Source of the DNA: SAR324 cluster bacterium
GTDB taxonomy: Bacteria; SAR324; JACQKK01
NCBI GenBank assembly: GCA_027297205.1
Contig: JAPUIH010000031.1
Span: 1-32,064 of the forward strand
DNA length: 32,064 nucleotides
Reading direction: 5' to 3'
This document shows positions 785 through 30,212 of this stretch, piece after piece. Numbering within the stretch: the stretch's first letter is position 1; each line of letters opens with the position of its first letter. Made by a program: the position numbers and the translations under genes. Under the pieces are notes generated by a model. It made no database searches, was not told where the DNA came from, and was given only the letters and a program-made list of their open reading frames with translations.

Positions 785-1040
785 TCTCCGGGCAAAGGAT
801 AATCCCCCTATTGGCCTGACCGGGTAAAGTCCCACGCGTTCTTCGCTCCGGATGCTTGCCGTACGGCGTAGTGCCGGCCGGATCAGTTGCCAGTGCCGCG
901 GACAGAAGCAACTGACCCTGTCGCCGTTCTGGGCCATGGAATGGGCCTGGCATTCCGGAGATCGAGGGCTCCACACCCTGTATTTTCAATCTCTTGGGCC
1001 GGCGCCTCCTCCTGATCGAACTCGGCATGAACAGGCGAGC

Positions 1041-2657
1041 ATGAATTACGGATTCATAATCGACAATCGCAAATGCATTGGCTGCCATGCCTGCACGGTG
1101 GCCTGCAAGGCCGAACACGACGTTCCCGTGGGTGTCAACCGCACCTGGGTCAAATATGTGGAGAAGGGAATTTATCCTCATACCCGCCGCGTGTTCAGCG
1201 TGCTGCGCTGCAATCATTGCGAGGCGGCGCCCTGCGTGGAAATCTGCCCGGTGACCTCCCTGTTCATGCGTGAGGACGGCATAGTCGACTTTGATAGCGA
1301 GCGCTGTATCGGCTGCAAAGCCTGCATGCAGGCCTGTCCCTATGATGCCCTCTACATCGATCCCCAGAGCAACACCTCGGCCAAATGCAACTACTGCGCG
1401 CACCGCATCGATGTCGGGCTGGAGCCGGCCTGCGTTAACGTCTGCCCCGTGCACGCCATCGTGTCCGGCGACATGCAAGATCCGGATACGGAGATCGCGC
1501 GGCTGCTGAGCCGGCAACAGGTGACCGTCCGCAAACCGGAGAAGAATACCCGTCCCAAGTTGTTTTATATTGACGGGGACGAGGCGGCCCTGCGGCCGCA
1601 AGAGGCCCCTCCGCGCAATGAGTATACCCAGGCCGAGCAGGTCACCGGAGTGGGGCATTTCGCGGCTTACGCGGAACAATTGGCGGGGCTGAGCAATCGC
1701 TCCCTGCGCAGTAAAGTGCTGGCGGCGGACGAGCGTAAAGACAACGCCGCGGCCAGCGCCGCGAAGAACAATGGCGCGGCCCTGGCGGCCCCGCGGCGCA
1801 CCTACGATGCGCCCCACAAGGGTGTGCTGTGGGACTGGGAGGTCTCTGGCTACCTGTGGACCAAGTCCATCGCCGCGGGTGTGCTCTTTCTCCCCCTGCT
1901 GCTGGAACTGGCCGGGGGGGCGGCTTTGCCCGATCGGCTGGCGCGGGCGGCCGGGATCGTTTCCCTGCTTTTTCTGGCGCTCACCGGGGTTTTGCTGGTG
2001 AAAGACCTGGATCGCCCCGAACGATTTCTCTACGTGCTGCTACGGCCCCAATGGCGCTCCTGGCTGGTGCGCGGTGCGTATATCGTGCTGGGTTTCGGCT
2101 CGCTTACCACTCTGTGGACGCTGCATCTGTTTTTTGGGGACGCCGATTCGGCGGCGGGGGCTGTTGTATTGCTAAAAGCCCTGGTAATGCTGCTGGGCGG
2201 GCTCACCGCGGTGTACACCGCCTTTCTGTTCGCCCAGGCCAAGGGCCGGGATTTCTGGCAGAGCCCGCTTTTGCCGGTGCATATGCTGGTGCAAAGCGCC
2301 CTGGCCGGGCTGGCGGTGCTGCTGTTGATGGGCCGCCTGGCCGAGCTGGACGTGAGCGCCCAGCTGCTGCCCGTGTTGCAGGGGGGGCTGGTGCTGCACC
2401 TGGGCCTGCTGCTGTTGGAATTCAACCTGACCCATGTCACCGCGGATGCGGCTTCCGCCGCCGCGCTGATATTGCGTGGCCCCCTGCGCGCGCCGTTCTG
2501 GTCGGCGGTGCTGTTGGGCAATGCCCTGCCCCTGCTGATGCTGCTGCTGGACGGGGGTGGCCTGTTCCTGCTTCCGGCCTGCGTGCTGGTCTTGCTGTTC
2601 GCCCTGGTGATGGAGCATGTGTGGGTGCGCGCCCCACAACTGATCGCGCTAAGCTAG
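1041..2657 (+). CDS. Fused four-cluster ferredoxin (DmsB/PsrB/SoeB-like) and NrfD/PsrC-like membrane anchor
   Basis: Four Cys groups (CIGCHACTVAC, CNHCEAAPCVEIC, CIGCKACMQAC, CNYCAHRIDVGLEPACVNVC) followed by a multi-TM NrfD-like region (GYLWTKSIAAGVLFLPLLLEL...LLVKDLDRPERFLYVLLRPQWRSWLVRG). Natural start MNYGFIIDNRKC at 1041; the ORF is open from 852. Confidence 0.88.
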   Translation: MNYGFIIDNRKCIGCHACTVACKAEHDVPVGVNRTWVKYVEKGIYPHTRRVFSVLRCNHCEAAPCVEICPVTSLFMREDGIVDFDSERCIGCKACMQACPYDALYIDPQSNTSAKCNYCAHRIDVGLEPACVNVCPVHAIVSGDMQDPDTEIARLLSRQQVTVRKPEKNTRPKLFYIDGDEAALRPQEAPPRNEYTQAEQVTGVGHFAAYAEQLAGLSNRSLRSKVLAADERKDNAAASAAKNNGAALAAPRRTYDAPHKGVLWDWEVSGYLWTKSIAAGVLFLPLLLELAGGAALPDRLARAAGIVSLLFLALTGVLLVKDLDRPERFLYVLLRPQWRSWLVRGAYIVLGFGSLTTLWTLHLFFGDADSAAGAVVLLKALVMLLGGLTAVYTAFLFAQAKGRDFWQSPLLPVHMLVQSALAGLAVLLLMGRLAELDVSAQLLPVLQGGLVLHLGLLLLEFNLTHVTADAASAAALILRGPLRAPFWSAVLLGNALPLLMLLLDGGGLFLLPACVLVLLFALVMEHVWVRAPQLIALS

Positions 2658-2699
2658 GGCCTTCCTTGCCAAGGCATTTGTTAACCGCGAACTCTTAGT

Positions 2700-5570
2700 A
2701 TGGTGATGATCAACAAATCCTGGATCGAGAAAACCGCCGAGCGGCTGAAACTGATCAAACCTCTTGAAACGGGGGATGGCGAGGCTTTGCCGCGCCTGAG
2801 CGTGACCGACTTGCAGGGCTTTCCGCCCCCGGAGCGGTGGCGGGATTGGGAGGAGTATGATGCCGGAGCCTGGCCCCTGAAAAAGAAGAAGCACTACCAG
2901 ATTATTCCCACCACCTGCTTCAACTGCGAATCCGCCTGCGGCATGGTGGCCTATGTGGACAAGGAGACGGGCAGCGTACGCAAATTCGAGGGCAATCCCT
3001 ATCATCCCGCCTCGCGGGGCCGCAACTGTGCCAAGGGCCCGGCCACCATCAACCAGATCAACGATCCCGAACGGATTCTCTACCCGCTGCGGCGCAAAGG
3101 GGCGCGGGGCTCCGGGCAATGGGAACGGGTGAGCTGGGGGGAGGTGCTGGACGATATCGCGGGCAGAATCCGCAAGGCCATCCAGGAAGAGCGCCGTAAC
3201 GAGGTGGTGTATCATGTGGGCCGTCCCGGGCATGAAGGTTATATGGACCGCGTCCTCAAATCCTGGGGCGTGGACGGCCACAACAGCCATACCAACATCT
3301 GCTCCGCCGGCGCGCGCCTGGGCTATGCCCTCTGGCAGGGCATCGACCGTCCATCCCCGGATTACGCCAACGCCCGCTTTATCCTGCTCATCAGTTCCCA
3401 TCTGGAAACCGGGCATTACTTCAACCCCCACGCCCAGCGCATCATGGAAGGCATGCAGGCCGGCGCGGAGCTGGCGGTGATGGACCCCCGCCTCTCCAAC
3501 ACGGCCAGCATGGCCCGTTACTGGATGCCCACCTATCCCGGCTCGGAAGCCGCCGTGCTGCTGGCCATGGCGCGGGTGATCCTGGCGGAGGGGCTGTACA
3601 ACCGGGAATTTCTGGAAAACTGGGTCAACTGGCGTGCTTACATGGGCGCGCACCATCCCCGCGCGCCCCAGCAATTTGAGAGTTTCATCGAAAAGCTGCT
3701 GGAGCATTACGCGGAATTCACCCCCGCATACGCGGCCGCCGAGGCCCAGGTGGACGAGGAGACCATCGTCTCCGTGGCGCGCCGCATCGGGGCGGCGGGC
3801 ACCCGCTTTGCCTGCCACAACTGGCGCAGCGCGAGCTCCGGGAACCTGGGGGGCTGGCAGGTCGCGCGCTGCCTGCATTTCCTGAGTGTGCTGACAGGTT
3901 CCGTGGGCACCGTGGGGGGCACCCTGCCCGCGGCATGGAGCAAGTTCAAGCCCACCCTGTTCGACAATCCGCCGGCCCAGAAACTTTGGAACGAGTTGCA
4001 TTTTCCGGACGAGTACCCCCTGGCCCACTTCGAGATGAGCCCGATTCTGCCCCATATGATCAAGGAAGGCCGGGGCAGGATTGACGTGTATTTCACGCGG
4101 GTATTCAACCCGGTCTGGACTTTCCCGGACGGCTTCTCCTGGATCGAAACCCTGCGGGAGGAGAAGTACTTCGGCTGCCACATTGCGCTTACGCCGACCT
4201 GGAACGAGACTGCGTATTACGCGGATTACGTGCTGCCCATGGGTCATGCCTCCGAGCGCCACGACCTGAACAGTTACGAGACCCACGCGGGCATGTGGAT
4301 TGCCTTCAGGCAGCCCGTGCTGCGCCGGTTCGCCGAAGAGAACGGTCAGGCCGTGGAGTTCACCTATCAGGTCAATCCGGGTGAAGTGTGGGAAGAGGAC
4401 GAGTTCTGGATCGAGCTGTCCTGGCGCATTGACCCGGACGGCTCCCTGGGCATCCGCGAGCACTTCCTCTCCCCCTACCGGAAGGGCGAGAAGATCACGA
4501 TCGAGGAATACTACCGTTATATATTCGAGCATACCCCCGGCCTGCCCGAGGCGGCCCAGGCGGAGGGCATGAGCCCGCTCGCATACATGTGCCACTACGG
4601 GGCCTTCGAGATTTCGAGCAATGTGTACGAAAAGCACAACACCGTGCTGGACAAGAAAACCCTGCAAGGCACGCAGACCGACCAGGCCAGCGGTCTCATC
4701 ACCCGCGACGGCGCGCCCACGGGCGTGATGGCGCGGGGCGAGCCCCGGGAAGGCTTTCCCACCCCCTCACGCCTGCAGGAGTTTTACTCGCCCACCATGG
4801 AGGAGTGGGGTTGGCCCGAATATGCCCTGCCCGGTTACATCAAGAGCCATATCCATCCGGAAAAGCTGGCGCGGGACAAGCACGAATACGTGCTGGTGCC
4901 CACCTTCCGCCTGCCCAATCTAATTCACAGCCGGTCGGGCAACGCCAAGTGGCTGGTGGAGATAGCGCACCGCAATCCGATCTGGATTCATACCTCCATG
5001 GCCGAGGCCCTGGGCGTTGGCACCGGAGACCTGCTCAAGGTAAACACGGATATCGGTTATTTTATCGATAAGGTATGGGTGACCGAGGCCATCAAGCCCG
5101 GCGTGGTGGCCTGTTCCCATCACATCGGGCGCTGGCAGCTCGATGGAGGGCAGAAGGGCAACCAGTGGATGGCCAACACGGTGCGATTGGAGGAGGGCGG
5201 CGGCAAATGGCGCATGCATACGGTGACCGGCGTGCAGCCCTTCGCCAGTGACGATCCCGACTCCCGGCGCATGTTCTGGCGGGATGGTGGCGTGCACCAG
5301 AACATCACCCATGCGGTGCATCCGGACCCCGTCAGTGGCATGCATTGCTGGCACCAGCGGGTGCGCCTGGAAAAGCCCGGCCCGGAAGAAAAATACGGCG
5401 ATATCCTGGTGGATACCAAGCGCTCCTTCGCGGTCTACAAGGAATGGCTGGAAATGACGCGGCCCCCGCGGCGGGCGGACGGCCTGAGACGGCCCCTGTG
5501 GCTGGGGCGCCCCCTGCGCCCGGCCGATGAAGCCTTTTACAAGACCCCACGGACGGATGCGGCGGATTGA
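2700..5570 (+). CDS. Molybdopterin-dependent oxidoreductase catalytic subunit (DMSO reductase superfamily, SoeA/PsrA-like, no Tat signal)
   Basis: N-terminal Fe4S4 motif CFNCESACGMVAYVDKETGSVRKFEGNPYHPASRGRNCAKGPA, HTNICSAGARLGYALWQG at the Mo-ligand region, and C-terminal molydopterin-binding region (GNAKWLVEIAHRNPIWIHTSMAEALGVGTGDLLKV). 956 aa. No twin-arginine signal at the N-terminus. Confidence 0.9.
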   Translation: MVMINKSWIEKTAERLKLIKPLETGDGEALPRLSVTDLQGFPPPERWRDWEEYDAGAWPLKKKKHYQIIPTTCFNCESACGMVAYVDKETGSVRKFEGNPYHPASRGRNCAKGPATINQINDPERILYPLRRKGARGSGQWERVSWGEVLDDIAGRIRKAIQEERRNEVVYHVGRPGHEGYMDRVLKSWGVDGHNSHTNICSAGARLGYALWQGIDRPSPDYANARFILLISSHLETGHYFNPHAQRIMEGMQAGAELAVMDPRLSNTASMARYWMPTYPGSEAAVLLAMARVILAEGLYNREFLENWVNWRAYMGAHHPRAPQQFESFIEKLLEHYAEFTPAYAAAEAQVDEETIVSVARRIGAAGTRFACHNWRSASSGNLGGWQVARCLHFLSVLTGSVGTVGGTLPAAWSKFKPTLFDNPPAQKLWNELHFPDEYPLAHFEMSPILPHMIKEGRGRIDVYFTRVFNPVWTFPDGFSWIETLREEKYFGCHIALTPTWNETAYYADYVLPMGHASERHDLNSYETHAGMWIAFRQPVLRRFAEENGQAVEFTYQVNPGEVWEEDEFWIELSWRIDPDGSLGIREHFLSPYRKGEKITIEEYYRYIFEHTPGLPEAAQAEGMSPLAYMCHYGAFEISSNVYEKHNTVLDKKTLQGTQTDQASGLITRDGAPTGVMARGEPREGFPTPSRLQEFYSPTMEEWGWPEYALPGYIKSHIHPEKLARDKHEYVLVPTFRLPNLIHSRSGNAKWLVEIAHRNPIWIHTSMAEALGVGTGDLLKVNTDIGYFIDKVWVTEAIKPGVVACSHHIGRWQLDGGQKGNQWMANTVRLEEGGGKWRMHTVTGVQPFASDDPDSRRMFWRDGGVHQNITHAVHPDPVSGMHCWHQRVRLEKPGPEEKYGDILVDTKRSFAVYKEWLEMTRPPRRADGLRRPLWLGRPLRPADEAFYKTPRTDAAD

Positions 5571-5591: not shown

Positions 5592-7448
5592 TTAAAATGC
5601 CAGGGAGAATCCGCTGTCGGGAATTTCCATCGCGCTCAAGTCTCCCTCGGCAAGCACCTCGTTCAGGCTGAACACGGTGGGCAGGATATTGCGCGCATAG
5701 AAGCGGGCCGTGGCAATCTTACCTTGATAATACTGGGCGTCCTGGCTGTCTTCGGCGGCATTCTTCAAGCCTTCCTCCGCGGTGAGCGCCCCTTCCAGCA
5801 GCAGCTTTGCGATGAGCGTCTTGGACATGCTTTCCAGAAAGCGCGTCGCGGTGAGCAGGACTAACTCCCGTTTGTCCTGGGCGAAGAATTCCATATACTT
5901 GCCCAAGACCACGTTGAATCCTTCCATGGCCCGGCCCAGCGCGGCACTCTCGGCCTCGTAGCCCTTGTGGCCCCCGAGGGCTTTTACGAATTCAGCCATT
6001 TCACCGGTAAAGCGGCCGATAACCGCCCCGCCGTTCTGGGTCAGTTTGCGCCCCACCAGGTCCAGGGCCTGAATGCCGTTGGTGCCCTCGTAGACAGGGA
6101 ATATTCTGGAATCGCGCATATACTGCTCCGCCGGGTAGTCGGCCGTGTAGCCGGCTCCGCCATAAACCTGGAGCGCCAGGGAAGACACATGCACCGCCAT
6201 GTCGGAGACGAAGGATTTGGCCAGGGGGATGAACAGCCCGAAGTAATCCGTCAGGGCGTCAGCCGCCTCGCGGTCCGACTTGCTCAATGTTGTGGCTTCG
6301 TCCATCAGCCGTACTGTAAAAAAGATCAGCGCACGGCAGCCCTCCACGGTGGATTTCATCTCCATCAGCATGCGCCGCACGTCGGGATGCTCAATGATGG
6401 GCACCGCACCGCTTTCCGGCCGGCCATCGCGGAAGTGCGCCCCTTGCTTGCGGGTGCGGGCATAACTGAGGGCGTTCAGATAGGCCGTGGAGGCTACGGC
6501 CAGGGACTGCACGCCCACGCCTATGCGGGCTCCGTTCATCATGAGGAACATCTTGCGGATGCCTTCGCCCGGCTCCGCGCTTTCCTCCCTTTCGCCGCCC
6601 AGCAAATAGCCATCGCAGTTACCCGCCTCGCCAAAGGCCAGCGCCGCGGTGGCGGAGCCGTGAATGCCCATCTTGTGCTCGATACTGGTGCAAGTGACGT
6701 CGTTGAATTCTCCCAGGGAGCCGTCGGGGTTGACCTTGAACTTGGGCACGATGAACAGGGAGAGGCCGCGGGTGCCCTTGGGCGATCCTTCGATCCGCGC
6801 CAACACCAAATGCACGATATTTTCAGTGATATCGTGATCGCCCCCGGAGATGAAAATCTTATTTCCGGTGATCTTGTAGCTGCCGTTGGAATTGGGCACG
6901 GCCTTGGTGCTGCTCAATCCCACGTCCGAGCCCGCGTGCGATTCCGTGAGCACCATGGTGCCGCCCCAGGTGCCGTTATCCAGCTTGGCGCTGTAAATCT
7001 CGCGCTGCTCCGGAGTGCCGAAGGCGCGTATCACGTTCGCCGCGCCGTTGGTGAGCGCGGGATACATCTGAAACGCGGTGTTGGCTCCACTCATCATTTC
7101 CGTAACGGCGATGCCGAGCAAGTTGGGTGCGCCCTGCCCTCCCGCCTCTTCGGACATGGACAGGGTGTTCCAGCCGCCCTCATAATACTGCTTCCAAAGC
7201 TCGTGCATCTCCGGGGGCACTTTTACGCCATCCTCCGTTTTCTGCACGCCGGTCCTGTCCGAGGATTGCAGGGTCGGCCCGATTACTTCCGATGCGAAAT
7301 GGTGGGCTTCCTTGAGAATCATGCGCGCGTCTTCCTCGCTGAAATGGTCGAAGGGCGGGGAAGAAAACAGATCGGTTAGCCTGAACTGCTCGAACAGGGT
7401 AAATTCCAGCTCCTTCAGATCGGCTTTGAAAAAATTAACATCGCTCAT
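5592..7448 (-). CDS. Acyl-CoA dehydrogenase (large, about 600 aa, with C-terminal extension)
   Basis: GGTMVLTESHAGSDVGLSSTKA, ISGGDHDI, LALQVYGGAGYTADYPAEQYMRDSRIFPVYEGTNGIQALDLVGRKL. Start taken at MSDVNFFKADLKELEF (7448); ORF open from 7496. Confidence 0.93.
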   Translation of the reverse strand: MSDVNFFKADLKELEFTLFEQFRLTDLFSSPPFDHFSEEDARMILKEAHHFASEVIGPTLQSSDRTGVQKTEDGVKVPPEMHELWKQYYEGGWNTLSMSEEAGGQGAPNLLGIAVTEMMSGANTAFQMYPALTNGAANVIRAFGTPEQREIYSAKLDNGTWGGTMVLTESHAGSDVGLSSTKAVPNSNGSYKITGNKIFISGGDHDITENIVHLVLARIEGSPKGTRGLSLFIVPKFKVNPDGSLGEFNDVTCTSIEHKMGIHGSATAALAFGEAGNCDGYLLGGEREESAEPGEGIRKMFLMMNGARIGVGVQSLAVASTAYLNALSYARTRKQGAHFRDGRPESGAVPIIEHPDVRRMLMEMKSTVEGCRALIFFTVRLMDEATTLSKSDREAADALTDYFGLFIPLAKSFVSDMAVHVSSLALQVYGGAGYTADYPAEQYMRDSRIFPVYEGTNGIQALDLVGRKLTQNGGAVIGRFTGEMAEFVKALGGHKGYEAESAALGRAMEGFNVVLGKYMEFFAQDKRELVLLTATRFLESMSKTLIAKLLLEGALTAEEGLKNAAEDSQDAQYYQGKIATARFYARNILPTVFSLNEVLAEGDLSAMEIPDSGFSLAF

Positions 7449-7594
7449 GAAACAGCTCCTAATTGGCTGCGAAGTCGCCTTGGTCTCCCTATGCACTCCC
7501 CATTGCCGACGGCGTCAGGTGCAGGTTTAATAACGCCTTTTTGTTAATTATGACCCAGAATATAATGACTCCCCAAATTTTAATATGGGATCGG

Positions 7595-8158
7595 TTACGG
7601 ACTGTACAAATAGGGGCGCATCCGCCGAGTGTAGTCCCTGATACTGTAGAACAGCCGCAGCAGCAGGAACGCCAGCAAATAATACAGCCCCAGGCCGTGG
7701 ATTTTGCTCCAGATCAGGAATGGGCTGTCCGGCAGCAGGGAGTAGCCATATCTGGCGGTCATGAACATTTCAATTCCGGAAATCAGCACGGCGCAAAGGC
7801 TGATCCAGTATCCAAGCCCGGCCACGACCCGCATGGGGGGGCGCGCTCTGATGACCGGCCATGGCCATCCGTTCCTGGCCGCACGAAACCCGCGCGGAAT
7901 GCTATGGACCAGCATGACCAGGCGGCACAGGCACTCGATCAAAATGACCAGTGCAAACAGCCAGTGCAGTACGCGCAGCGCCGGATAGGGCAGCAGCGTC
8001 CCGCCTGTGGAAAATTTCAGGTAGAGGCCCGTCGCGATCAGGCCCAGCAGGGCGAGCAGACCGGCCGCCCTGCCCGTTTGCACCAGCATACGGTCGGTGT
8101 TGGCCAGCCAGTCCAGCAGATCGCCGCTGCTGATTTGCGGAATTTTAATGAACCGCAT
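7595..8158 (-). CDS. Cytochrome b (HupC/HyaC or cytochrome b561-like) membrane subunit of the hydrogenase-like complex
   Basis: About four TM helices (AAGLLALLGLIATGLYL, LHWLFALVILIECLCRLVMLVHSI, VVAGLGYWISLCAVLISGIEMF, KIHGLGLYYLLAFLLLRLF) with candidate heme His residues (LHW, VHS, IHG). Start ATG at 8158 overlaps the large-subunit stop. Confidence 0.75.
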   Translation of the reverse strand: MRFIKIPQISSGDLLDWLANTDRMLVQTGRAAGLLALLGLIATGLYLKFSTGGTLLPYPALRVLHWLFALVILIECLCRLVMLVHSIPRGFRAARNGWPWPVIRARPPMRVVAGLGYWISLCAVLISGIEMFMTARYGYSLLPDSPFLIWSKIHGLGLYYLLAFLLLRLFYSIRDYTRRMRPYLYSP

Positions 8159-9635
8159 CGCTGGCACTGAAGAAATATGAATGCACAATCTGCGAGGCGC
8201 GCCGGCGGTCCCGCTCCGACCGCAAATCCAGGCCGGCTGAGTTGAGCGCAAGTTCGATACCGCTCGAGTTTTCGTTCTCGTCCCGTGGGGCGCCATTCCA
8301 GGTGCTGGCCGAGACGATGTCATATAAGGCGATACGGCCATTTCGCAGTACAAGGCGATGTTGGACAATGCCGGCGGGCGCCTCGATATGCGCCACCGCT
8401 TCGCCGTGCCCCTTGGAGGCGCCGTTGTCCTTTGCGATCGTGGGTTGCCCTGGATTCAGATGGTCCAGCAGAGATTCGCATCTCTCCACCAGTGGATGCA
8501 ATTCCCCCAACCGGGCCAGAATGCGCCCTCCGGTGGTGTTGGCATCCAATACAGGCACCCCCAGCACTTCCTGGATGCGTTCCACCAGTGGCGCCACATG
8601 GCTGCGCGATCCGCTGAGATGGGTGATCACCAGGCGCGCCAAGGCGCCGGTTTCCGCCCGGCGGGCTTGATATAGGGGAGCCTTGATCCAACTGTAGGCG
8701 CCTTGTTTTTGCGGAGCTTCCTCCAGCAATTGGAAATTCCCGCCGGCCTTGAGCGGAACACGGTAGAAGGCGTACTGGAGATTTTCCGTGACGTTTGGCT
8801 GAAAGGATTCCAGGGTATTGCCGAACAGCACGCCCCCGGGGAATAAGGACTCTTCGGGGCCCGTATCGTCTCCGATTGTGCCGGCGCTCAGATATGCCTG
8901 GGAGCCCTTGCCCAGGGTTTTCGTCTCCTCCCGCTTTTCGAGCAACAGCAGACCGTCCTCCAGGGGCGTCTCCCGCAGGAATGGCCCGATCTCGCGCATC
9001 AGGGTGCGCAGCCTGAACACGAGCGGCTCCCGAAGCGGAGTCGTAGCTCCGCCAGGGACAATGGACATCACCAGGGGAAATTTCCCTCCAATAATGGCCA
9101 TCATGCGCTGCAGGAGGGACAGCGCCCGCAACGCCCGGGCCTGATTCTCGGCGAGCTGGTTGATTTCGCTGTCCGAAAATCGGTGCGGGAAGCGGTGGCG
9201 CGCCCAGGAGCCCGGCGGTTGTGCACCCATGGCTTGGGCCACGCGCCGCAGCTCCGGCGAAGGGCCCTTGTATGCGGCCAGGGCGCTGGGGGGAATGAAA
9301 TCGGGCAGCGCCTGAAAATAAAACTGCCGCAGATTGGCATGAAGAAATGACAAGGTATGCAACAGCTCCCGCAACAACAGCCCATTTTGCGCTGTCCCGG
9401 TATCCGTGGCCGCCTCCCACGCGCTAATGGCTGCAAGGGCATGGCTGACGCCGGAGTCCGCGCCAATGAGCTGGGTCATATAAACCGCGTCCAGGGGAGC
9501 CCTGCCGCGCAGCAGCTTTTCAAATCCCCGCGGCCGCGAGGCAGCCACCATGATGGTCCCCCCATCATCCTGGACAAGTTGCGCGGCGCCCTCGATCCGC
9601 TTGATTTGCATGCGCAAGGCCGCCATATCAAGCAT
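8145..9635 (-). CDS. [NiFe]-hydrogenase large-subunit homologue lacking all Ni-Fe cysteine ligands
   Basis: Hydrogenase framework: RIEG near the N-terminus, GVSHALAAISAWEAA after the L1 position, LLHTLSFLHANLRQFYFQALPDF, STWNGAPRDENENSSGIELAL, C-terminal VHSYFFSASDAVH*. L1 is TQLIGADSGVSH where RVCGICxxSH is expected. L2 is YFFSASDAVH where FDPCxxCAVH is expected. Confidence 0.85.
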   Translation of the reverse strand: MLDMAALRMQIKRIEGAAQLVQDDGGTIMVAASRPRGFEKLLRGRAPLDAVYMTQLIGADSGVSHALAAISAWEAATDTGTAQNGLLLRELLHTLSFLHANLRQFYFQALPDFIPPSALAAYKGPSPELRRVAQAMGAQPPGSWARHRFPHRFSDSEINQLAENQARALRALSLLQRMMAIIGGKFPLVMSIVPGGATTPLREPLVFRLRTLMREIGPFLRETPLEDGLLLLEKREETKTLGKGSQAYLSAGTIGDDTGPEESLFPGGVLFGNTLESFQPNVTENLQYAFYRVPLKAGGNFQLLEEAPQKQGAYSWIKAPLYQARRAETGALARLVITHLSGSRSHVAPLVERIQEVLGVPVLDANTTGGRILARLGELHPLVERCESLLDHLNPGQPTIAKDNGASKGHGEAVAHIEAPAGIVQHRLVLRNGRIALYDIVSASTWNGAPRDENENSSGIELALNSAGLDLRSERDRRRASQIVHSYFFSASDAVH

Positions 9636-10635
9636 CCTCCTTGTCGCCAGTCTCCACCCCCCGCCTTTCCTCCGGCGTGAGCGCCCTGCGGATCAGGTGC
9701 AGCCCAATGCCTGCCGCGGCCAGGGCGGCCGTGCCCATACCGAGCGCCTCCAGATTTTGCAGCAGGGCCGACTGACTGCCGAACATGCCGCCGCTCAACC
9801 GGCCATAAAGGCCCACACCGCCATGATCGGGAAAGCCCGGCTCGGCGCAGCCCGTGCAGGGACCGCCGGCTCCCACACACCAGTTGGCGCCCCCGTTCCA
9901 GCGCACCGCGGAGCAGCTGTTATGGGTAATTGGTCCCTTGCAGCCCAGTTGCAGCAGGCAGCCCGCGGAGCCAAATTCCTGAGCAAAGCGGCCGGTTTCC
10001 AGATCGTCCCGGCGCTCGCAACGTTCGCATACGGTTTCACCGTAATAGAGCAGCGGCCGCCGCTTTCCGTCGAGTCGGGGAAAACCGTAATATTCCAGAT
10101 GGTTAAGAATGCCCAGCAAATGATGGGGCGGCACCGGAATGCCGGGCAACTTTATCAGTGGGGTCTTGTGCTGCCTGCACAGTGCCACGAAGTCGGCGAT
10201 GTCCCGTCTGTCCGTGGAAATTCCACCGAAGCAGGCCTCAGTGCCCAGCAGCAATGCCGCCTTGGCCTGGGGCAGGACGGCACGCACCTTGGCAGCAATC
10301 TGCAATCCCGGGCCGTGCCGGCTGGGGACAGCCTCCATGACCAGTATGGGCGCGGCGGAAAACGGCCCCTGATTCGCCACGAAGCCCGTGGGTTGCACGG
10401 GGCCGTAGTCCCGCAAATCCCATTGGACGGCGATTAGGTCTAGAAAAGTCGGCAACTGCTGGCCCAACAGGGCCAGGTGGTCCTGGTCGCTGACCCCGTC
10501 TTTGATCCACACGAGCGGCGTGACTGGGACCCGTTCCGCCAGGGAGGCGGCCATGGCTTGCAGGGAGGGCAGACCCGCAGCGCCCGAGGTGCCAAGGAGT
10601 ATTCCTTTAATAATTTCCCGCCTGGAAAATTTCAT
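9628..10635 (-). CDS. [NiFe]-hydrogenase small-subunit homologue with Tat signal and C-terminal anchor
   Basis: MKFSRREIIKGILLGTSGAAGLPSLQAMA (Tat-like). VCERCERRDDLETGRFAQEFGSAGCLLQLGCKGPITHNSCSAVRWNGGANWCVGAGGPCTGCAEPGFPD is diagnostic of hydrogenase small subunits. Terminal TM LGMGTAALAAAGIGLHLI. Start at 10635 preferred over 10695. Confidence 0.87.
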   Translation of the reverse strand: MKFSRREIIKGILLGTSGAAGLPSLQAMAASLAERVPVTPLVWIKDGVSDQDHLALLGQQLPTFLDLIAVQWDLRDYGPVQPTGFVANQGPFSAAPILVMEAVPSRHGPGLQIAAKVRAVLPQAKAALLLGTEACFGGISTDRRDIADFVALCRQHKTPLIKLPGIPVPPHHLLGILNHLEYYGFPRLDGKRRPLLYYGETVCERCERRDDLETGRFAQEFGSAGCLLQLGCKGPITHNSCSAVRWNGGANWCVGAGGPCTGCAEPGFPDHGGVGLYGRLSGGMFGSQSALLQNLEALGMGTAALAAAGIGLHLIRRALTPEERRGVETGDKEDA

Positions 10636-10810
10636 CCGCCTGATTATTCCCTTTGCAATCGGATTGGCGATTTCGTGTGATTGGAAGAGGTGCATGGCCT
10701 CCCCTCCTGTTTATAGCCCTCGGGCATCGCGCTTTCAACCTTGGACTTGCGGCAGCCGCAAGCAATCTGATGGTTATCCGCTCAAAAAGATAATTATTTC
10801 GGGTTTATGC

Positions 10811-10839
10811 TTGTCAAACAAGAATAGTTTGTGTAGAAC
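10811..10839 (+). promoter_or_regulatory. Candidate sigma70-type promoter for the S24 regulator and its leader
   Basis: TTGTCA (10811-10816), 17-nt spacer, TAGAAC (10834-10839). Lies in the divergent region upstream of the structured leader. Confidence 0.35.
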
Positions 10840-10868: not shown

Positions 10869-11158
10869 CCGCAGCGGTGTGAGGTGTAACGGCACGAACC
10901 GCTGCGGCTAAGGTGGGGAAGGGAAGTTGCAGTAACGAAACCCGGAGAAGGGCGAAATGCCGAAAATGCTGCTCTTACGGGAAGGGTGGTTCAGGGATCG
11001 GAACGGAACTGGCCCAAGGATGGCACCCTTGCCATGGTGCGCCACCGGCTGGCAGCCTTTCTCCGGGCTTTCGATGGGGCAGGGATTGCGCCATTGATTG
11101 ACCATGCCGGATGCCACGAGCGGCGGCGAAAACCGTCAGGAACCACCCTTATGGGAGG
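10869..11158 (+). ncRNA. Candidate structured 5' leader RNA or cis-regulatory element upstream of the S24 regulator
   Basis: Perfect complementary pairs: 10869-10877/10899-10907 (CCGCAGCGG/CCGCTGCGG), 10941-10949/11059-11067 (CCCGGAGAA/TTCTCCGGG), 10982-10992/11140-11150 (AAGGGTGGTTC/GAACCACCCTT). Hairpins at 11020-11035, 11036-11046 and 11047-11057. No convincing ORF. Confidence 0.55.
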
Positions 11159-11167
11159 GATTCAAGG

Positions 11168-11827
11168 ATGAAGACACTCGCCGAGGTTTTACGGAATCGC
11201 ATCCAGGAGATGGGCTTTGAGGATATCAAGGAGTGCGCCCGTCAGTTTGACGTGCCCTATGAATTGCTCCGGAAGGTGATATCCGACGGCCATCTACCCA
11301 AGGACAAGACCCTGTTGTTCTACGCGGAGAAGTTCGGACTAAACGCGGCGGACCTGATTTCCATCGTATACCGGCAACGTGCGCCCCAGCATCTCAAGTA
11401 CTTGTTTGACAGCCCCTCGGGCCTGACGCCCGCGCCGATGCCCGAAACCAGCAGGCAGGCGCCCGTGCTGGGCCGCGCAGCCTGCGGCGAGTGGTTGGAA
11501 TCCTACCAGGTGGAGCCGGACGCCTACGAGCCGGTGGACCTCGGCGATGATGATGCGTTCTTTGTAACGGCCGAGGGGGAAAGCATGGTGGGAGGCAATA
11601 TCCCGCCAGGCGCATACCTGTTGGTATCGCCCCGGGCACGGGTCAGCAATGGGGACATTGTGCTGGCCCGATTGGGTGAAGAGGAATTTACGGTCAAGAG
11701 CTACTTCCGTCAGGCAAGCGGCACCACCATTCTCCAACCCATGAATTCGGCCTACGAGCCGTTGGTGCTCGGGCCGGAAGAGCCGCTTACCGTGATGCGA
11801 ATTACCGAGATTCGTATTAAAACCTGA
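11168..11827 (+). CDS. HTH plus S24/LexA-CI-like peptidase-domain transcriptional regulator
   Basis: N-terminal HTH-like region (ECARQFDVPYELLRKVISDGHLPKDKTLLFYAEKFGL). S24 features: GRAACGEW cleavage-like site, AEGESMVGGNIPPGAYLLV (Ser) and EEFTVKSYFR (Lys). GGGAGGG SD upstream of ATG 11168. Confidence 0.85.
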   Translation: MKTLAEVLRNRIQEMGFEDIKECARQFDVPYELLRKVISDGHLPKDKTLLFYAEKFGLNAADLISIVYRQRAPQHLKYLFDSPSGLTPAPMPETSRQAPVLGRAACGEWLESYQVEPDAYEPVDLGDDDAFFVTAEGESMVGGNIPPGAYLLVSPRARVSNGDIVLARLGEEEFTVKSYFRQASGTTILQPMNSAYEPLVLGPEEPLTVMRITEIRIKT

Positions 11828-12253: not shown

Positions 12254-13039
12254 ATGATGCCGAACCTGCTGCAGTTCGATCCCACCCAAATCATTGGATT
12301 TGTAGTCATATTCACCCGAATTACGGGGATTATGGTGATATCGCCCATTCTTGGCGACACCAATATCCCCATGCAGATCAAAGTCGCTATCGCCTTTGTG
12401 TTTTCTCTGGTTTTCTTTCCGGTCGTTGGAGCGGCGGATTTGGGTCCAAATCCGGAGCTAAGCCGAATCTTGTATGTGGCCGTGACTGAATTCGGCCTGG
12501 GTCTGGTGATGGGATTTGCCGTGCGGATGTTATTCACGGGCGTGAGCCTTGCAGGGGAAGTGGCAGGCTTTCAGATGGGTGTGGGTGTGGCCAATATCTT
12601 CGATCCGAGTTCCGAGCAGCAAGTCTCTCTGATCGGTCAGATTCAGGTCATATTTGCCCTGCTGCTCTTTGTTACGCTGGACGGGCATCACTTGCTGATC
12701 AAATCCCTCGTGGAAAGCTACGCCATTGTTCCGCCGGGAGGGCTGGCCCTGAGCGAACAGGGAATGCGCTTTTTTGTAGCGCAAGCGGGCAATATATTCC
12801 TGATCGGCCTGCAGATCGGCGCACCCTTGATCGTGGCCTTGCTGGCGGCCAACTTCAGTATGGGTCTGATCGCGCGCTCGGTGCCGCAAATGAACGTAAT
12901 CGTGGTCGGGTTCCCGTTTTCGATAGGCCTGGGGCTGCTGTTCCTATTCTTGGGATTTCCGTATTTTATGCGTTCCATGATGGTCATTATCGAGCGGCTG
13001 GATGACATCCTGATGGCCGCACTGAAGCTGCTGGGATAG
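12254..13039 (+). CDS. fliR: Flagellar export apparatus protein FliR
   Basis: VVIFTRITGIMVISPILGDTNIPMQIKVAIAFVFSLVFFPV, EVAGFQMGVGVANIFDPSSEQQVSLIGQ. Size and gene order fit FliR. Start may be 12254 or 12257. Confidence 0.95.
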   Translation: MMPNLLQFDPTQIIGFVVIFTRITGIMVISPILGDTNIPMQIKVAIAFVFSLVFFPVVGAADLGPNPELSRILYVAVTEFGLGLVMGFAVRMLFTGVSLAGEVAGFQMGVGVANIFDPSSEQQVSLIGQIQVIFALLLFVTLDGHHLLIKSLVESYAIVPPGGLALSEQGMRFFVAQAGNIFLIGLQIGAPLIVALLAANFSMGLIARSVPQMNVIVVGFPFSIGLGLLFLFLGFPYFMRSMMVIIERLDDILMAALKLLG

Positions 13040-13052
13040 GCGAGGATTATCC

Positions 13053-14129
13053 ATGGCGGAAGCCGAAGCACAAGAAAAAACCGAGGTTCCAACCCAGAAA
13101 AAGCGGGAGGATTCCCGTAAAGAGGGCATGGTGGCATCCAGCCGTGAGGTTTCCTCCGCGGCGTTGCTGGGCGCCTTCGCGCTGTATTTTCTGGTTGCGG
13201 GTCAGAGCAACATGGGCACCATGAAATCCGTGTGGCGCCACTCCTTTACCAATCTTGCGGCGGGCGATCTCACCATCGCGGAATTGGGACGAGTGTTCAA
13301 GGATGTCACGATGACCCTTGCGCCCATGCTGCTCGGGGTGTTCGGGCTGATATTTATCGTGGCGCTGCTGGCCTCCTACATTCAGGTAGGCGCGGTTTTT
13401 AACGCCCTGAAGTTTCAGCCGAACCGCCTCAATCCCCTCAACGGCATCAAGCGTATCTTCTCTTCCGTGGGCCTGGCCGAGTTTCTGAAGAGCTTGTTCA
13501 AGATGGGGGTGATTGGCTACATCACCTACTTTTCCTACCAGCAGGAAACGGAGGGGATGCTGCAACTGTCCAGGTTGTCCGTTGAGGGAATCCTGGCTTT
13601 CAATGCCTCTCTGCTGGGCGTTTTGTTCGGACGGGTGGCACTGGCTTTGGTGATTTTGGCTATCTTCGATTATCTGTTTCAGCGCTGGAACATGGAGCAG
13701 CGAATTAAGATGACCCGCCAGGAAGTTAAGGACGAATTAAAACAGACGGAAGGTGACCCACAACTGCGCGCAAGGGTACGACAAGTGCAAAGAGATGTAT
13801 CACGGGCCCGGATGATGCAAAATGTGCCCAAGGCCGATGTGGTTGTCACCAACCCGACCCATTACGCGGTGGCCCTGATGTACGATCGTGAGGTCATGAC
13901 AGCTCCTAGACTGGTGGCCAAGGGAGCGGGCCATATCGCCCAACGTATCAGGGATATAGCCGAAGAAAACGAGGTGCCGATCGTGGAAAATCCACCCATG
14001 GCCAGGGAAATATACGCTCAGGTGGAAATCGGCAATGAAATTCCCGAAGAATTTTTCAAAACAGTGGCGGAAATTCTTGCCTATGTGTACCGCATCAAGG
14101 GGCAGACCGCCGAGCCTCCGCTAAACTAA
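13053..14129 (+). CDS. flhB: Flagellar export apparatus protein FlhB
   Basis: EKTEVPTQKKREDSRKEGMVASSREV N-terminus; autocleavage motif VVTNPTHYAVALMYD. Confidence 0.97.
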   Translation: MAEAEAQEKTEVPTQKKREDSRKEGMVASSREVSSAALLGAFALYFLVAGQSNMGTMKSVWRHSFTNLAAGDLTIAELGRVFKDVTMTLAPMLLGVFGLIFIVALLASYIQVGAVFNALKFQPNRLNPLNGIKRIFSSVGLAEFLKSLFKMGVIGYITYFSYQQETEGMLQLSRLSVEGILAFNASLLGVLFGRVALALVILAIFDYLFQRWNMEQRIKMTRQEVKDELKQTEGDPQLRARVRQVQRDVSRARMMQNVPKADVVVTNPTHYAVALMYDREVMTAPRLVAKGAGHIAQRIRDIAEENEVPIVENPPMAREIYAQVEIGNEIPEEFFKTVAEILAYVYRIKGQTAEPPLN

Positions 14130-14202
14130 TCAGGGCTTTTTTCGCGCTGGCCCATAGTCCGGGCCCCGCAGAGTTTCAATCTTCGCTTCAGACGTAGAAG
14201 GC

Positions 14203-16290
14203 ATGGCCGTAGGAACCGCAGAAACTACATTGATGAAGGTCGGCCGCCATACCGACTTTATGCTGGCCATTGGTGTGGTCAGTATCATCATGGTGTTGGT
14301 GCTGCCCCTCGCGCCGATCCTGCTGGATTTGCTGCTGACGACCAGCATCGCCGTGGCGGTGTTGATTCTATTCGTTTCGCTGTTTACCAGGACGACGCTG
14401 GACTTTTCGGCTTTTCCGACCATCTTGCTTATTTCCACCTTGTTCCGCCTTTCGCTGAACGTTGCGTCCACCCGGCTCATTCTGGTGAATGGCAACCAAG
14501 GCTTGGCCGCGGCGGGGAACGTCATCAAATCCTTCGGCGATTTTGTGGTCGGCGGTAACTTTGTGGTGGGGATTATCATTTTCCTGATCCTGGTGGTTAT
14601 CAACTTTGTGGTAATCACCAAAGGCGCGGGGCGGATCGCCGAGGTGGCGGCACGCTTTACCCTGGACGCCATGCCGGGCAAGCAGATGGCCATCGACGCC
14701 GATCTCAATGCGGGCATCATCGAAGATACGGAAGCCAAGGAGCGCCGCGTCAGGATTCAGCAAGAGGCGGATTTTTACGGTGCCATGGATGGTGCCAGCA
14801 AGTTCGTACGGGGGGATGCTATCGCGGGTTTGATCATCACCGGCGTCAACATCATCGGCGGACTGGTGATCGGGGTCTTTCAATTCGGCATGGATCTGGA
14901 AACGGCCCTAGACACCTACACGGTCTTGACCGTGGGCGATGGCCTGGTCGCACAGATTCCGGCTCTGATCGTCTCCATGGCCGCTGGTATCGCCGTTACC
15001 AAGGCTTCGGGCGACGAAACCCTGGCCGATGACATCAAAAAGCAGTTGCTGGGCAATCACCGGGCCATGTCCGTGGCGTCGCTGGTGATTTTTGGCTTCG
15101 CCATCATTCCCGGCATGCCCACTTTGCCCATGATGGTGGTGGCGTCGACCGTGGGCTTAATTGCCTATTTGACCTACAGCGGAAAACAGCGGGCAAGCGC
15201 GGAAGAGGTGGAAGCCACGGCTGCCGAAGCGCAGCAGGCCGCCGAGGAGGCCCCGGAAGACATCGAGGCATTGCTGCCCATCGACCGCCTTGGCATTGAG
15301 CTTGGGTTTGGGCTGATTCCTCTGGTTGATGCCGAGCAGGACGGGGAGCTGCTGGAGCGGATCAAGTCCATCCGCCGCCAGTTGGCGACGGAAATGGGCT
15401 TTATCGTTCCGCCCATCCATATCAAGGACAATCTGGATCTGGCCCCGGGCGCCTATTCCATCATCATCAAAGGGGTGGAAGTGGGGCGCTCCGAAGTGAT
15501 GCTGGATCACTTGCTGGCCATGAAGACTGGCGATGTGGACGAGGATATTGCCGGGGTGGACACCATCGAACCCGCATTCGGTTTGCCCGCCCTGTGGATT
15601 CCACCCGAAGATCAGGAGCGCGCGCAGTTCGCCGGCTTTACCGTGGTCGATCTGCCCACGGTGCTGGCCACGCACCTGATTGAAGTTGTAAAGCGTCATG
15701 CGCCGGAGTTCCTGGGCAGGCAGGAAGCACAACGGCTGATCGACAATTTCGGCAAGGATGAGCCCAAGGTGGTGGAGGAGTTGATCCCCAACGTACTCAC
15801 CCTGGGTGTGGTGCAGAAAGTGATGCAGAACCTGCTGCGTGAGCGGGTGTCCATTCGCGATCTGCACACGGTGATGGAAACCCTGGCCGACATGGGGGGA
15901 TTAACCAAGGACCCGGACCTGCTCACCGAGTATGTGCGCCAATATATGGCGCGCACCATCACGCGCCAGTATCAGACGCCTGACGGCACGCTGCCGCTGG
16001 TTTCGCTCTCCCAGGACTGGGAGGACAAGCTGGCCGCCGCCATCCAGACCACGCCCCAGGGCACTTATCTGGGCCTGGATCCCGAAATGGCGCAAAACGT
16101 TATTCAGAACATTGAAGGGCAGATGGAAAACTTCGCCGTATTCAGTTACCAGCCCATTTTGCTCTGTTCGCCGTTGATCCGGCCCCATGTGAAGAAATTG
16201 ACTGAACGGTTTATTCCGAATCTGGTGGTGCTGTCCCACAACGAGGTCTCCCACGACGTGCGAATCGAGTCTTTGGGACTGGTAGGCTAG
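14203..16290 (+). CDS. flhA: Flagellar export apparatus protein FlhA
   Basis: TLFRLSLNVASTRLIL, GDFVVGGNFVVGIIIFLILVVINFVVITKGAGRIAEVAARFTLDAMPGKQMAIDADLNAGII. 695 aa. Confidence 0.98.
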   Translation: MAVGTAETTLMKVGRHTDFMLAIGVVSIIMVLVLPLAPILLDLLLTTSIAVAVLILFVSLFTRTTLDFSAFPTILLISTLFRLSLNVASTRLILVNGNQGLAAAGNVIKSFGDFVVGGNFVVGIIIFLILVVINFVVITKGAGRIAEVAARFTLDAMPGKQMAIDADLNAGIIEDTEAKERRVRIQQEADFYGAMDGASKFVRGDAIAGLIITGVNIIGGLVIGVFQFGMDLETALDTYTVLTVGDGLVAQIPALIVSMAAGIAVTKASGDETLADDIKKQLLGNHRAMSVASLVIFGFAIIPGMPTLPMMVVASTVGLIAYLTYSGKQRASAEEVEATAAEAQQAAEEAPEDIEALLPIDRLGIELGFGLIPLVDAEQDGELLERIKSIRRQLATEMGFIVPPIHIKDNLDLAPGAYSIIIKGVEVGRSEVMLDHLLAMKTGDVDEDIAGVDTIEPAFGLPALWIPPEDQERAQFAGFTVVDLPTVLATHLIEVVKRHAPEFLGRQEAQRLIDNFGKDEPKVVEELIPNVLTLGVVQKVMQNLLRERVSIRDLHTVMETLADMGGLTKDPDLLTEYVRQYMARTITRQYQTPDGTLPLVSLSQDWEDKLAAAIQTTPQGTYLGLDPEMAQNVIQNIEGQMENFAVFSYQPILLCSPLIRPHVKKLTERFIPNLVVLSHNEVSHDVRIESLGLVG

Positions 16291-16339
16291 AACGCCGGAT
16301 GTGGGGGAGCGCATCCGCAATTGAGGCAATAGGTCAGTA

Positions 16340-17644
16340 ATGCAAATCAAACGTTACCGCGCAGCGGATATGCACGAGGCGTTGAGCAAGGTCAAAAAAG
16401 ACATGGGCGCGGATGCCGTGATTCTATCCACCCGCCAGGTGCGGGGGGGAGGCGGAACTTTCGGCCTGTTCGGCAAACCCATGCTGGAGGTCACCGCCGC
16501 CCGCGAGACGCCGGGCGACGACGGGGGCAACAGTACCCTGCGCGCCGCTTTGACCGGGGGCGACAGGGCGCTGGCCGTCAATGAGGGGGAGCATCGGCCC
16601 GCGGATGGCGCGGCAAGCGAATTAATGCGCCAGATGCTTTCCAGGAACAAGATGGAGACCGAAAGCTTGCTGGCACCCTTGCAGGATGACATCCACGATC
16701 TGAAAGAGATTATGCAGTCCGTGGGGGATTCCCAGAAAAATGGCCTGCGCGAGGAGACCGCGCTGCAGCAAATCCGTAGCGACCTGGCCAACATGCACCA
16801 GTTGCTGCACTCCCTGACCGCTCAATCCACAACCCTGCGCGGGGCGGAATATCCCGACAACCTGGTGGTGCTCTACCAGCAGTTGATCTTTAACGGGATG
16901 GAGGAAAAATTCGCGCGGCGGCTGGTGGAAGAATCCCTGAAAAGCATCCCGGGCAAGGAGATGGAAGATTTCTCCTACGTAAAGATCTTCCTGGCCCGCA
17001 TGCTGATGAAGATCATCAACACCACAAACGGCATCCAGGCCGATGGAGATCAGCAGAAAGTGGTGGCGCTGGTCGGTCCCACAGGCGTGGGCAAGACCAC
17101 CACGGTGGCCAAGCTGGCCTCCGAGCAACTGCTCAAGCATCGCAGGAAGGTGGCGCTGATCACCATCGACACCTTCCGTATCGCCGCGGTGGAGCAGCTC
17201 AAGGTGTATGCGAAAATCATGGGCGTTCCCGTCTCGGTGGTGCAGAGCAAGGGGGAACTGCGCCAGGCCATTGACAGAAATGCCGGCGCGGATGTCATAT
17301 TCGTGGATACAGGCGGGCGTTCCCAGCGCGACGACTTGCAAATGTCGGAAATCTACAAGCTCTTTGGAGATGCGGAAAACATCGACATCCTGCTGACCCT
17401 GAGCGCCACCACCAAGGATGCGGACCTGACCGAGATAACCCGGCGCTTCAATGAAATCCCTCTTTCCGGAGTGGTGTTTACAAAGCTGGACGAGAGCACG
17501 GCCTTTGGTTCTATGTTCAACCATGCCATCCGCTTCAAAATGCCAATTGCCTATTTGACCACGGGTCAGAAGGTGCCCGAGGACATGGAGTTGGCCACGC
17601 GGGAGCGCTTGGTCGACCTGATGTTGAATATCACCGATGCCTGA
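16340..17644 (+). CDS. flhF: Flagellar SRP-like GTPase FlhF
   Basis: MQIKRYRAADMHEALSKVKKDMGADAVILSTR; GTPase motifs VGPTGVGKTTTVAKLA, TIDTFRIAAVEQL, VDTGGRSQRD, TKLDE. Confidence 0.97.
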   Translation: MQIKRYRAADMHEALSKVKKDMGADAVILSTRQVRGGGGTFGLFGKPMLEVTAARETPGDDGGNSTLRAALTGGDRALAVNEGEHRPADGAASELMRQMLSRNKMETESLLAPLQDDIHDLKEIMQSVGDSQKNGLREETALQQIRSDLANMHQLLHSLTAQSTTLRGAEYPDNLVVLYQQLIFNGMEEKFARRLVEESLKSIPGKEMEDFSYVKIFLARMLMKIINTTNGIQADGDQQKVVALVGPTGVGKTTTVAKLASEQLLKHRRKVALITIDTFRIAAVEQLKVYAKIMGVPVSVVQSKGELRQAIDRNAGADVIFVDTGGRSQRDDLQMSEIYKLFGDAENIDILLTLSATTKDADLTEITRRFNEIPLSGVVFTKLDESTAFGSMFNHAIRFKMPIAYLTTGQKVPEDMELATRERLVDLMLNITDA

Positions 17645-17723
17645 GCGCCGGGCCGGATGATCGCCGCGGGAGCTGTCCCGCGGCAACCACCTCTTACGAA
17701 ATTACGCGTCGAGCAGCCCATCC

Positions 17724-18638
17724 ATGGATCAAGCAACCACCCTCCGCAAAATCGTCAATCTCAACAAATTCGAAGAAGGCCCGCAGCCCAAGTTGAGCGG
17801 CCGCATGCGCGTGATCGCCATTACCAGCGGCAAAGGCGGAGTCGGCAAAACGAATATTGTGCTCAATCTGTGCATGGCCCTGAGCAGTCGTAATCGCCGC
17901 GTATTGTTGCTCGATGCGGACATGGGGCTGGCCAATGTGGATGTGTTGCTGGGGCTCACTCCCAAATATACCCTTGAACACGTGATGAATCGGCAGAAGG
18001 ATGTGCGGGACATCATGCTCACCGGTCCCGCCGGATTCCGCATCCTTCCCTCGGGTTCGGGCATCAGCGAGCTCTCTGAAATGACCTATGAGCAGCAAAT
18101 GCACCTGTTTCAGGAGCTGAGCAAGATCGACGACGATCTGGATTATCTGTTTATCGATACGGGCGCGGGCATATCCTCCAACGTGCTGCGTTTTAATGCC
18201 TCGGCCAACGAGATTCTGATTATCGCCAATCCGGAGCCCACCTCCATTACGGATGCCTATGCGCTGATGAAGCTGCTGGCCATTAAGTACCACATCCGAG
18301 ATTTTGGCCTTATTGCCAATTCCGTCACTTCCCGGGCCGACGGGCAGGGGGTCTACGACACTCTGGAGCGGGTGTGCAGCCAATTTCTCAAAGTGAACCT
18401 GAACTTTCTGGGCTGGATTCCCTTCGACGCCAATTTCCGCAGGACCGTGCGCCAGCAAAAGCCGCTGCTGGAGTTGTATCCGGATTCCCCCGCGGCAAAG
18501 AGTATTTCCCGCATCGCCGATCTGCTGGACAGCCACTCCGTCACGCAATTGCCTCCTCAAGCCGCCGCCGGCGCTGAAATCGGGCCGGAAAAAGCCTCCA
18601 GTTTTTGGGACCGTTTATTGCATTGGAAGAAGATGTAA
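17724..18638 (+). CDS. flhG: MinD-like ATPase FlhG/FleN, flagellar number regulator
   Basis: ITSGKGGVGKTNIVLNLCMAL deviant Walker A, LLDADMGLANVDVLLGL; directly downstream of flhF. Confidence 0.95.
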   Translation: MDQATTLRKIVNLNKFEEGPQPKLSGRMRVIAITSGKGGVGKTNIVLNLCMALSSRNRRVLLLDADMGLANVDVLLGLTPKYTLEHVMNRQKDVRDIMLTGPAGFRILPSGSGISELSEMTYEQQMHLFQELSKIDDDLDYLFIDTGAGISSNVLRFNASANEILIIANPEPTSITDAYALMKLLAIKYHIRDFGLIANSVTSRADGQGVYDTLERVCSQFLKVNLNFLGWIPFDANFRRTVRQQKPLLELYPDSPAAKSISRIADLLDSHSVTQLPPQAAAGAEIGPEKASSFWDRLLHWKKM

Positions 18639-29663: not shown

Positions 29664-30212
29664 CTATTTCTTCCTTGTAAGATTATCCCAGTAGGTATCG
29701 AACTCCCCCGAATTCTTGAGCAGCTTGCGGCGGAAAGCCACCACTTTCCCGAATGGGGTTGCCGGTGCCGCGAGGGCATGGAAGGCGACCCAATTGTCCT
29801 TGCGCAGCCGGTCCACCACCTGTTCCTTGAAACCCGCCAGGGAATATTGCTCATTGCGGTAGAATATTGTGCCGTCCTGGCGGATGCGGTAGTTCAGCCT
29901 GACCGTGGGGCGGGCCTTGCGCCTCAAGTCCCGCGCCGCCAAGGCCCGCCTGCGCATCGCCTCCTTGTGCTCGATAAAGGCGAACTTTTCCATGATGGGA
30001 GCAAGTTGGGCCAGAGCCGCCTCGATCACGGTCTTTTCCTTTTGCACCACGGCCAGTTGTTCCTGGGCCGCCTCCAGGCGCACTTCGGCTTCAGATTCGG
30101 TGGTCCTGACGAAAAACAGGATCAAGACCAGGAACGCCACCAGCAAAAACAGCAGGTCAATGAACGCGATAAACGGTCCCTGGGAGCGCTTTTCTTCCGG
30201 TGCGACGATCAT
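29664..30212 (-). CDS. ExbD/MotB-like single-TM protein with coiled-coil linker
   Basis: N-terminal TM with Asp (FIAFIDLLFLLVAFLVLILFFV), a Glu/Ala/Gln-rich helix, then ExbD-like LNYRIRQDGTIFYRNEQYSLAGFKEQVVDRL. Confidence 0.7.
   Translation of the reverse strand: MIVAPEEKRSQGPFIAFIDLLFLLVAFLVLILFFVRTTESEAEVRLEAAQEQLAVVQKEKTVIEAALAQLAPIMEKFAFIEHKEAMRRRALAARDLRRKARPTVRLNYRIRQDGTIFYRNEQYSLAGFKEQVVDRLRKDNWVAFHALAAPATPFGKVVAFRRKLLKNSGEFDTYWDNLTRKK

Follow-up and report, generated by a model that had tools for sequence, protein, structure and literature searches.

A complex on a group-1-type [NiFe] hydrogenase frame in SAR324 bacteria lacks the cysteines of the NiFe site and of the proximal cluster

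The SAR324 operon described here encodes a three-subunit complex built on the frame of a [NiFe] hydrogenase. The use of hydrogen by this complex is hardly conceivable, and its role is probably to carry or to sense electrons. The cysteines of the NiFe site, the proximal cluster ligands and the catalytic arginine of [NiFe] hydrogenases are each missing from all 17 orthologues, and HypD is missing from the window genome and from eight of the nine genomes that have only this complex. The complex is thus a non-hydrogenase on a group-1-type frame. We see an even chance that it was inherited vertically and acts at the periplasmic face of the membrane, to which it would be anchored, as a two-cluster redox relay or sensor linked to quinone.

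The operon (Table 1) lies in a window of 32,064 nucleotides, by which we mean the whole stretch of DNA analysed. The small-subunit gene comes first, followed by the large-subunit and cytochrome b genes, in a tightly packed arrangement in which the large- and small-subunit genes overlap by 8 bases and the cytochrome b and large-subunit genes by 14 bases; in most genomes, these genes either overlap or are almost contiguous. The first-pass annotation had placed the small-subunit gene correctly in coordinates, strand and frame, with an ATG start reading MKFSRREIIKG. Another in-frame ATG is located further upstream, at 10695; nevertheless, the orthologues align to the start at 10635. Both main subunits belong by descent to the [NiFe] hydrogenase superfamily, as seen from their Pfam matches and from fold homology (Foldseek). 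The small subunit matches PF14720 (hydrogenase small-subunit C-terminal domain, E 1.4e-25) and the large subunit PF00374 (nickel-dependent hydrogenase, E 1.6e-54), both above the Pfam cut-offs; the small subunit falls under the NCBIfam cut-off of TIGR00391 (131.7 bits vs 179.5 required). Because both subunits pass the Pfam cut-offs, a survey of genomes may mistake these SAR324 bacteria for users of hydrogen. The Tat signal, the C-terminal membrane helix and the cytochrome b together give the complex the architecture of group 1 uptake-type enzymes.

Table 1. Features of the window discussed in the text.
Feature	Position	Strand	Remarks
Small subunit	9628..10635	minus	335 aa; Tat signal RR, Fe-S domains, C-terminal transmembrane helix (model residues 290-319)
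Large subunit, hydrogenase fold	8145..9635	minus	496 aa
Cytochrome b561-like membrane subunit, four-helix	7595..8158	minus	187 aa
Acyl-CoA dehydrogenase gene	5592..7496	minus	co-directional, downstream of operon
24-base motif CMCAARMWAWWHTWKKTTGRCAAG	10810..10833	minus	divergent promoter region, upstream of XRE/S24 repressor
XRE/S24 repressor (LexA/CI-like, self-cleaving type)	11111..11827	plus	divergent from operon
fliR, flhB, flhA, flhF-like and flhG-like flagellar export/regulation genes	12254..18638	plus	next to operon
Fused ferredoxin/NrfD membrane protein, then molybdopterin oxidoreductase (Psr/Phs/Ttr-like)	852..5570	plus	convergent on operon
Protein with MotA/TolQ/ExbB domain	30209..31768	minus	519 residues, longer than typical members

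The ligand columns of the small subunit were read from an alignment of the 17 SAR324 orthologues, which come from two families of this group (f1 and f3), with 39 cysteine-bearing homologues used as controls. It had been proposed from the window protein that S, D, E and I occupy the four proximal ligand positions, and the alignment bears this out position by position. None of the four proximal [4Fe-4S] cysteines is present in any of the 17 orthologues, the loss being a trait of the whole protein family, and no other cysteine is found at these positions. The third position is always Glu or Asp (17/17), and His172 is likewise invariant. Apart from the constant acidic residue, the residues of the proximal site vary by family, being mostly D..N in f1 and S..H in f3, and therefore no common metal-binding or cofactor set can be read from them. 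A cysteine two residues past the third ligand (GTEAC), to which the first-pass annotation had also pointed, is indeed present and is kept in all nine f1 sequences, but it is Ala or Ser in all eight f3 sequences and thus is not a family-wide replacement ligand.

In contrast to the proximal site, the outer clusters are kept. Exactly eight cysteines of the small subunit are invariant across the 17 orthologues, namely the distal (203, 206, 226 and 232) and medial (241, 253, 260 and 263) sets, with none besides. The earlier statement that the distal and medial motifs are preserved therefore holds for these eight cysteines (17/17), but not for the motifs as such, as the distal His has become Cys and the medial motif has a fourth Cys. 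Indeed, the distal His ligand, found as IHxxC in 39/39 controls, is Cys in every member of the family and in none of the 39 functional homologues, so that the His-Cys3 distal cluster of the group 1 uptake type is replaced by Cys4. The fourth medial Cys stands where most [NiFe] enzymes have Pro. It is common to several functional relatives (L024-L026, L028, L033, L110, L111 and L119) and not special to this family, and it leads us to expect a medial [4Fe-4S] rather than a [3Fe-4S] cluster. Altogether, the invariance of four distal and four medial cysteines predicts two [4Fe-4S] clusters. The structural model of the small subunit still matches hydrogenases (Foldseek), with a pLDDT of 73 that is weakest in the cluster-binding C-terminal part. 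Such low confidence can be expected for a prediction made without clusters, and no conclusion on cluster geometry is drawn from the model.

The large subunit retains none of the four NiFe cysteines (RxCGxC ... DPCxxC) in any of the 17 orthologues. The Asp of DPCxxC is also replaced in all of them, and in place of the catalytic-site Arg over the NiFe site they have Ala, Gly, Ser or Thr (Ala in the window protein). Other pocket residues are retained, including the Glu of RxEG, the His after the first motif, the Asp of LPDY in most sequences, and the Pro and His of the EAPxGxxxH motif. The model of this subunit (pLDDT 89) aligns to solved hydrogenases with TM scores of 0.82-0.87. Its C-terminus coincides with the His at which maturation proteases usually cleave; the absence of a C-terminal extension was considered as a mark of the family and rejected, since the real SAR324 hydrogenases L110, L111 and L119 also stop at that His (..ACSVH). 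These real [NiFe] hydrogenases share with the complex the phylum, the medial four-Cys motif and this end of the large subunit. They differ in that their own NiFe and proximal cysteines are all present where the sequence is available and that their distal site has His, and in the tree of small subunits they stand apart on a long branch. The cytochrome b subunit is very divergent, yet two His (65 and 154) and one Gly never change among the 17 orthologues. Canonical members of this cytochrome type carry two hemes; here, the presence of exactly two invariant His makes a single heme b the likely prediction.

The distribution of the maturation genes agrees with a complex that does not carry the NiFe cofactor. 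Nine of the 17 genomes with the complex have no real small subunit, and eight of these nine also have no HypD. HypD is thus found in 1/9 genomes with only the complex vs 16/17 genomes with a real small subunit (one-sided hypergeometric, ~5e-5, kinship between genomes ignored). As HypD is mostly missing where only the complex occurs, the latter most likely does not need the pathway of NiFe cofactor synthesis for its own production. The same counts already contradict the idea that the complex serves the real [NiFe] hydrogenases of the genome as a scaffold in maturation or as a regulator, comparable to HupK/HoxV or HupUV, which we regard as very improbable. HupK and HoxV do offer a model of large-subunit-like proteins that are not enzymes (PMC3534401), a likeness the SAR324 large subunit shares. 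However, they are single-gene maturation scaffolds beside a working hydrogenase, with no partner small subunit, whereas the SAR324 complex includes a Tat-type small subunit and a cytochrome b of its own. Furthermore, HupK-like proteins carry Cys motifs resembling the large-subunit ones, and HoxV is a binder of the cofactor precursor (PMC3534401), while the SAR324 large subunit is devoid of these cysteines, and neither cofactor-precursor Cys motifs nor co-occurrence with hydrogenase maturation is seen.

In a search of 52 SAR324 genomes, the family was found in 9/10 f1, 8/10 f3 and 0/31 f2 genomes, with a clear score gap separating it (311-509 bits) from the real hydrogenases of SAR324 (146 bits at most). 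The 17 orthologues form one clade with support 100/100, dividing into f1 and f3, so that vertical inheritance is the simplest history. No member was found outside SAR324 in about 330 other genomes, where the best matches were inspected, nor among the best matches listed in a scan of GTDB; these scans, on which the absence outside SAR324 rests, were non-exhaustive. The best non-SAR324 matches (G192, G278, G251, G139, G161 and G247) were rejected as relatives, being real hydrogenases with all cysteines, as were plasmid matches, all of which have less than 60% identity and the five listed of which are annotated as ordinary hydrogenases. The loss of every catalytic residue might suggest a decaying relic of an uptake hydrogenase, an explanation to which we give next to no credence. 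It is already contradicted by reading frames that are intact in 17 genomes of two families, by dN values (0.21-0.33 within one f3 genus) far under a saturated dS in both main subunits, and by the invariance of the eight cysteines and two His. Both main subunits are thus under purifying selection, judging from these substitution rates, and the complex has been retained over long evolutionary time in this uncultured group.

As a relay or sensor, the complex would be exported to the periplasmic face and would exchange electrons with the quinone pool via heme b. The distal and medial clusters would hold or pass electrons without reaching the old active site, and the large subunit would be a docking or structural partner. 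In hydrogenases, the established cluster spacing leaves over 20 angstroms between the medial cluster and the NiFe pocket when the proximal cluster is absent, too far for useful tunnelling. Quinone, heme b and the distal and medial clusters could therefore exchange electrons with one another while the old active site stays out of reach, and the complex would act as a redox relay or a sensor of redox state. Nevertheless, two clusters that end blindly inside the protein would make an unusual wire. The first-pass annotation had imagined an electron conduit with a rebuilt inner terminus. Its first part stands, in that the sequences point to a conserved two-cluster conduit that would no longer reach the NiFe site; its second part is not borne out, as the residues at the proximal site differ between f1 and f3 and offer no shared metal-binding set. 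The other possibility raised there, a module that stores or senses electrons, would be compatible with the anatomy of the complex.

The main rival to a relay or sensor is a true oxidoreductase with a new substrate. By analogy with other hydrogenase-derived systems, the emptied proximal/NiFe pocket could bind a substrate or cofactor (an organic cofactor, a mononuclear metal or a small molecule), with electrons passing to or from the medial cluster, a scenario that is unlikely but carries some weight. The fold and several pocket residues of the large subunit are kept, and the acidic third proximal position and His172 never vary, all of which would suit such an enzyme. A precedent also exists, since loss of NiFe opened a cavity for quinone or polysulfide in complex I and MBS (PMC7684303), two cases in which such a loss gave rise to new chemistry. 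However, both of these keep the proximal cluster as a catalytic or donor centre (PMC7684303), the very cluster lost from the SAR324 complex, and the family-specific residues at the proximal site leave no common cofactor site to be read.

The operon usually has flagellar genes for neighbours. Among the 16 loci with enough sequence on the contig (the f1 locus of G007 was left out, its contig being too short), 13 have the operon adjoining flagellar genes: 6/8 in f1 and 7/8 in f3, the exceptions being G005 and G009 (f1) and G050 (f3). The two families' operons adjoin different flagellar clusters. In f1, the operon is usually divergent from the S24 repressor, behind which come fliR-flhB-flhA-flhF-flhG. 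The f3 operon comes after flgB-flgC-fliE-fliF-fliH-fliI, often behind a calcineurin-like phosphatase gene, with overlapping frames in some genomes. This metallophosphatase gene lies between fliI and the small subunit in L020, L021, L128 and L129, and a VanY-type carboxypeptidase gene is located downstream; in some cases the frames overlap. From this synteny, a flagellar connection of the complex is possible. FliF is present in all 17 genomes with the complex, but also in nearly all f2 genomes, which have no complex, and was rejected as a co-occurrence marker because it is nearly universal in SAR324. Both FliF and the operon are missing from two f3 genomes, which are incomplete; as one of them (G049) has FlhA, the missing FliF is probably an assembly gap.

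These arrangements could point to a complex that serves mainly in structure or assembly around the basal body of the flagellum and whose Fe-S clusters would help it to fold, which we find rather improbable. Such a role would agree with the frames that in some f3 genomes overlap after the phosphatase gene behind fliI, with the S24-fliR-flhB-flhA-flhF-flhG neighbourhood of most f1 operons, and with FliF in every genome that has the complex. However, eight invariant cysteines and two invariant heme His point to a redox function, the near universality of FliF makes its co-occurrence uninformative, and f2 bacteria are flagellated without the complex, while the linkage is broken in three genomes of f1 and f3. 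The adjacency may therefore reflect either function or an old inherited synteny. For a redox relay or sensor, the place beside flagellar genes suggests that its output would concern motility. A more specific and rather doubtful version is a flagellum-coupled redox device, in which the state of the quinone pool would be read on the periplasmic side via one heme and two [4Fe-4S] clusters and fed into motility, through energy taxis or motor function.

Other neighbours of the operon are less constant. The XRE/S24 repressor, which has a conserved Ala-Cys-Gly cleavage-like site in the window and in L136, is a possible regulator. The 24-base motif occurs in one copy per genome in 7/10 f1 genomes; it was rejected as an operator of the small-subunit gene, as it goes with the S24 gene, even in G005, where the operon is located elsewhere. 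The acyl-CoA dehydrogenase gene is a neighbour in 7/9 f1 loci (the window, L014, L016, L017, L018, L019 and L123), the contigs of the remaining two ending soon past the cytochrome b gene. It does not adjoin the operon in f3, and its association with the operon is uncertain. The ferredoxin/NrfD and molybdopterin oxidoreductase genes of the window have no conserved counterpart beside the operon in other loci.

A full-text search of the literature found no earlier description of the complex, and a survey of SAR324 mentions group 1d hydrogenases only (PMC9031357). Compared with group 1 uptake [NiFe] hydrogenases (E. coli HyaABC, Ralstonia HoxKGZ and Allochromatium HydAB), the SAR324 complex has the same Tat/C-terminal-helix small subunit, large subunit and cytochrome b, and its medial and distal cluster regions align well with theirs. 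Unlike them, it lacks the NiFe cysteines, the catalytic Arg and the proximal cluster, and it has an all-Cys distal site instead of His-Cys3 and one His pair in cytochrome b. The best profile and fold match of its large subunit is to the [NiFeSe] hydrogenases of Desulfovibrio/Desulfomicrobium, from which it differs by the loss of all metal ligands. Complex I (NuoB/NuoD) and MBS (MbsJ/MbsL) are likewise hydrogenase-derived, with the NiFe site lost wholly in the former and partly in the latter; these are of group 4 descent, face the cytoplasm, drive the pumping of ions and have retained the proximal cluster as their working centre (PMC7684303). The contrast with complex I drawn in the first-pass annotation remains valid, as complex I keeps the proximal-type cluster and the SAR324 complex loses it while keeping the outer two. 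Hydrogenase-derived modules without NiFe are therefore already known; what we did not find in the literature searched is a periplasmic, group-1-type one that is also without the proximal cluster and has its outer wire kept. The loss of NiFe with the rest retained is best known from the complex I line, and the SAR324 complex appears to be an independent, periplasmic case on a group-1-type frame, in which the wire is cut at its other end. It offers a natural experiment on the uses of a hydrogenase frame that no longer catalyses.
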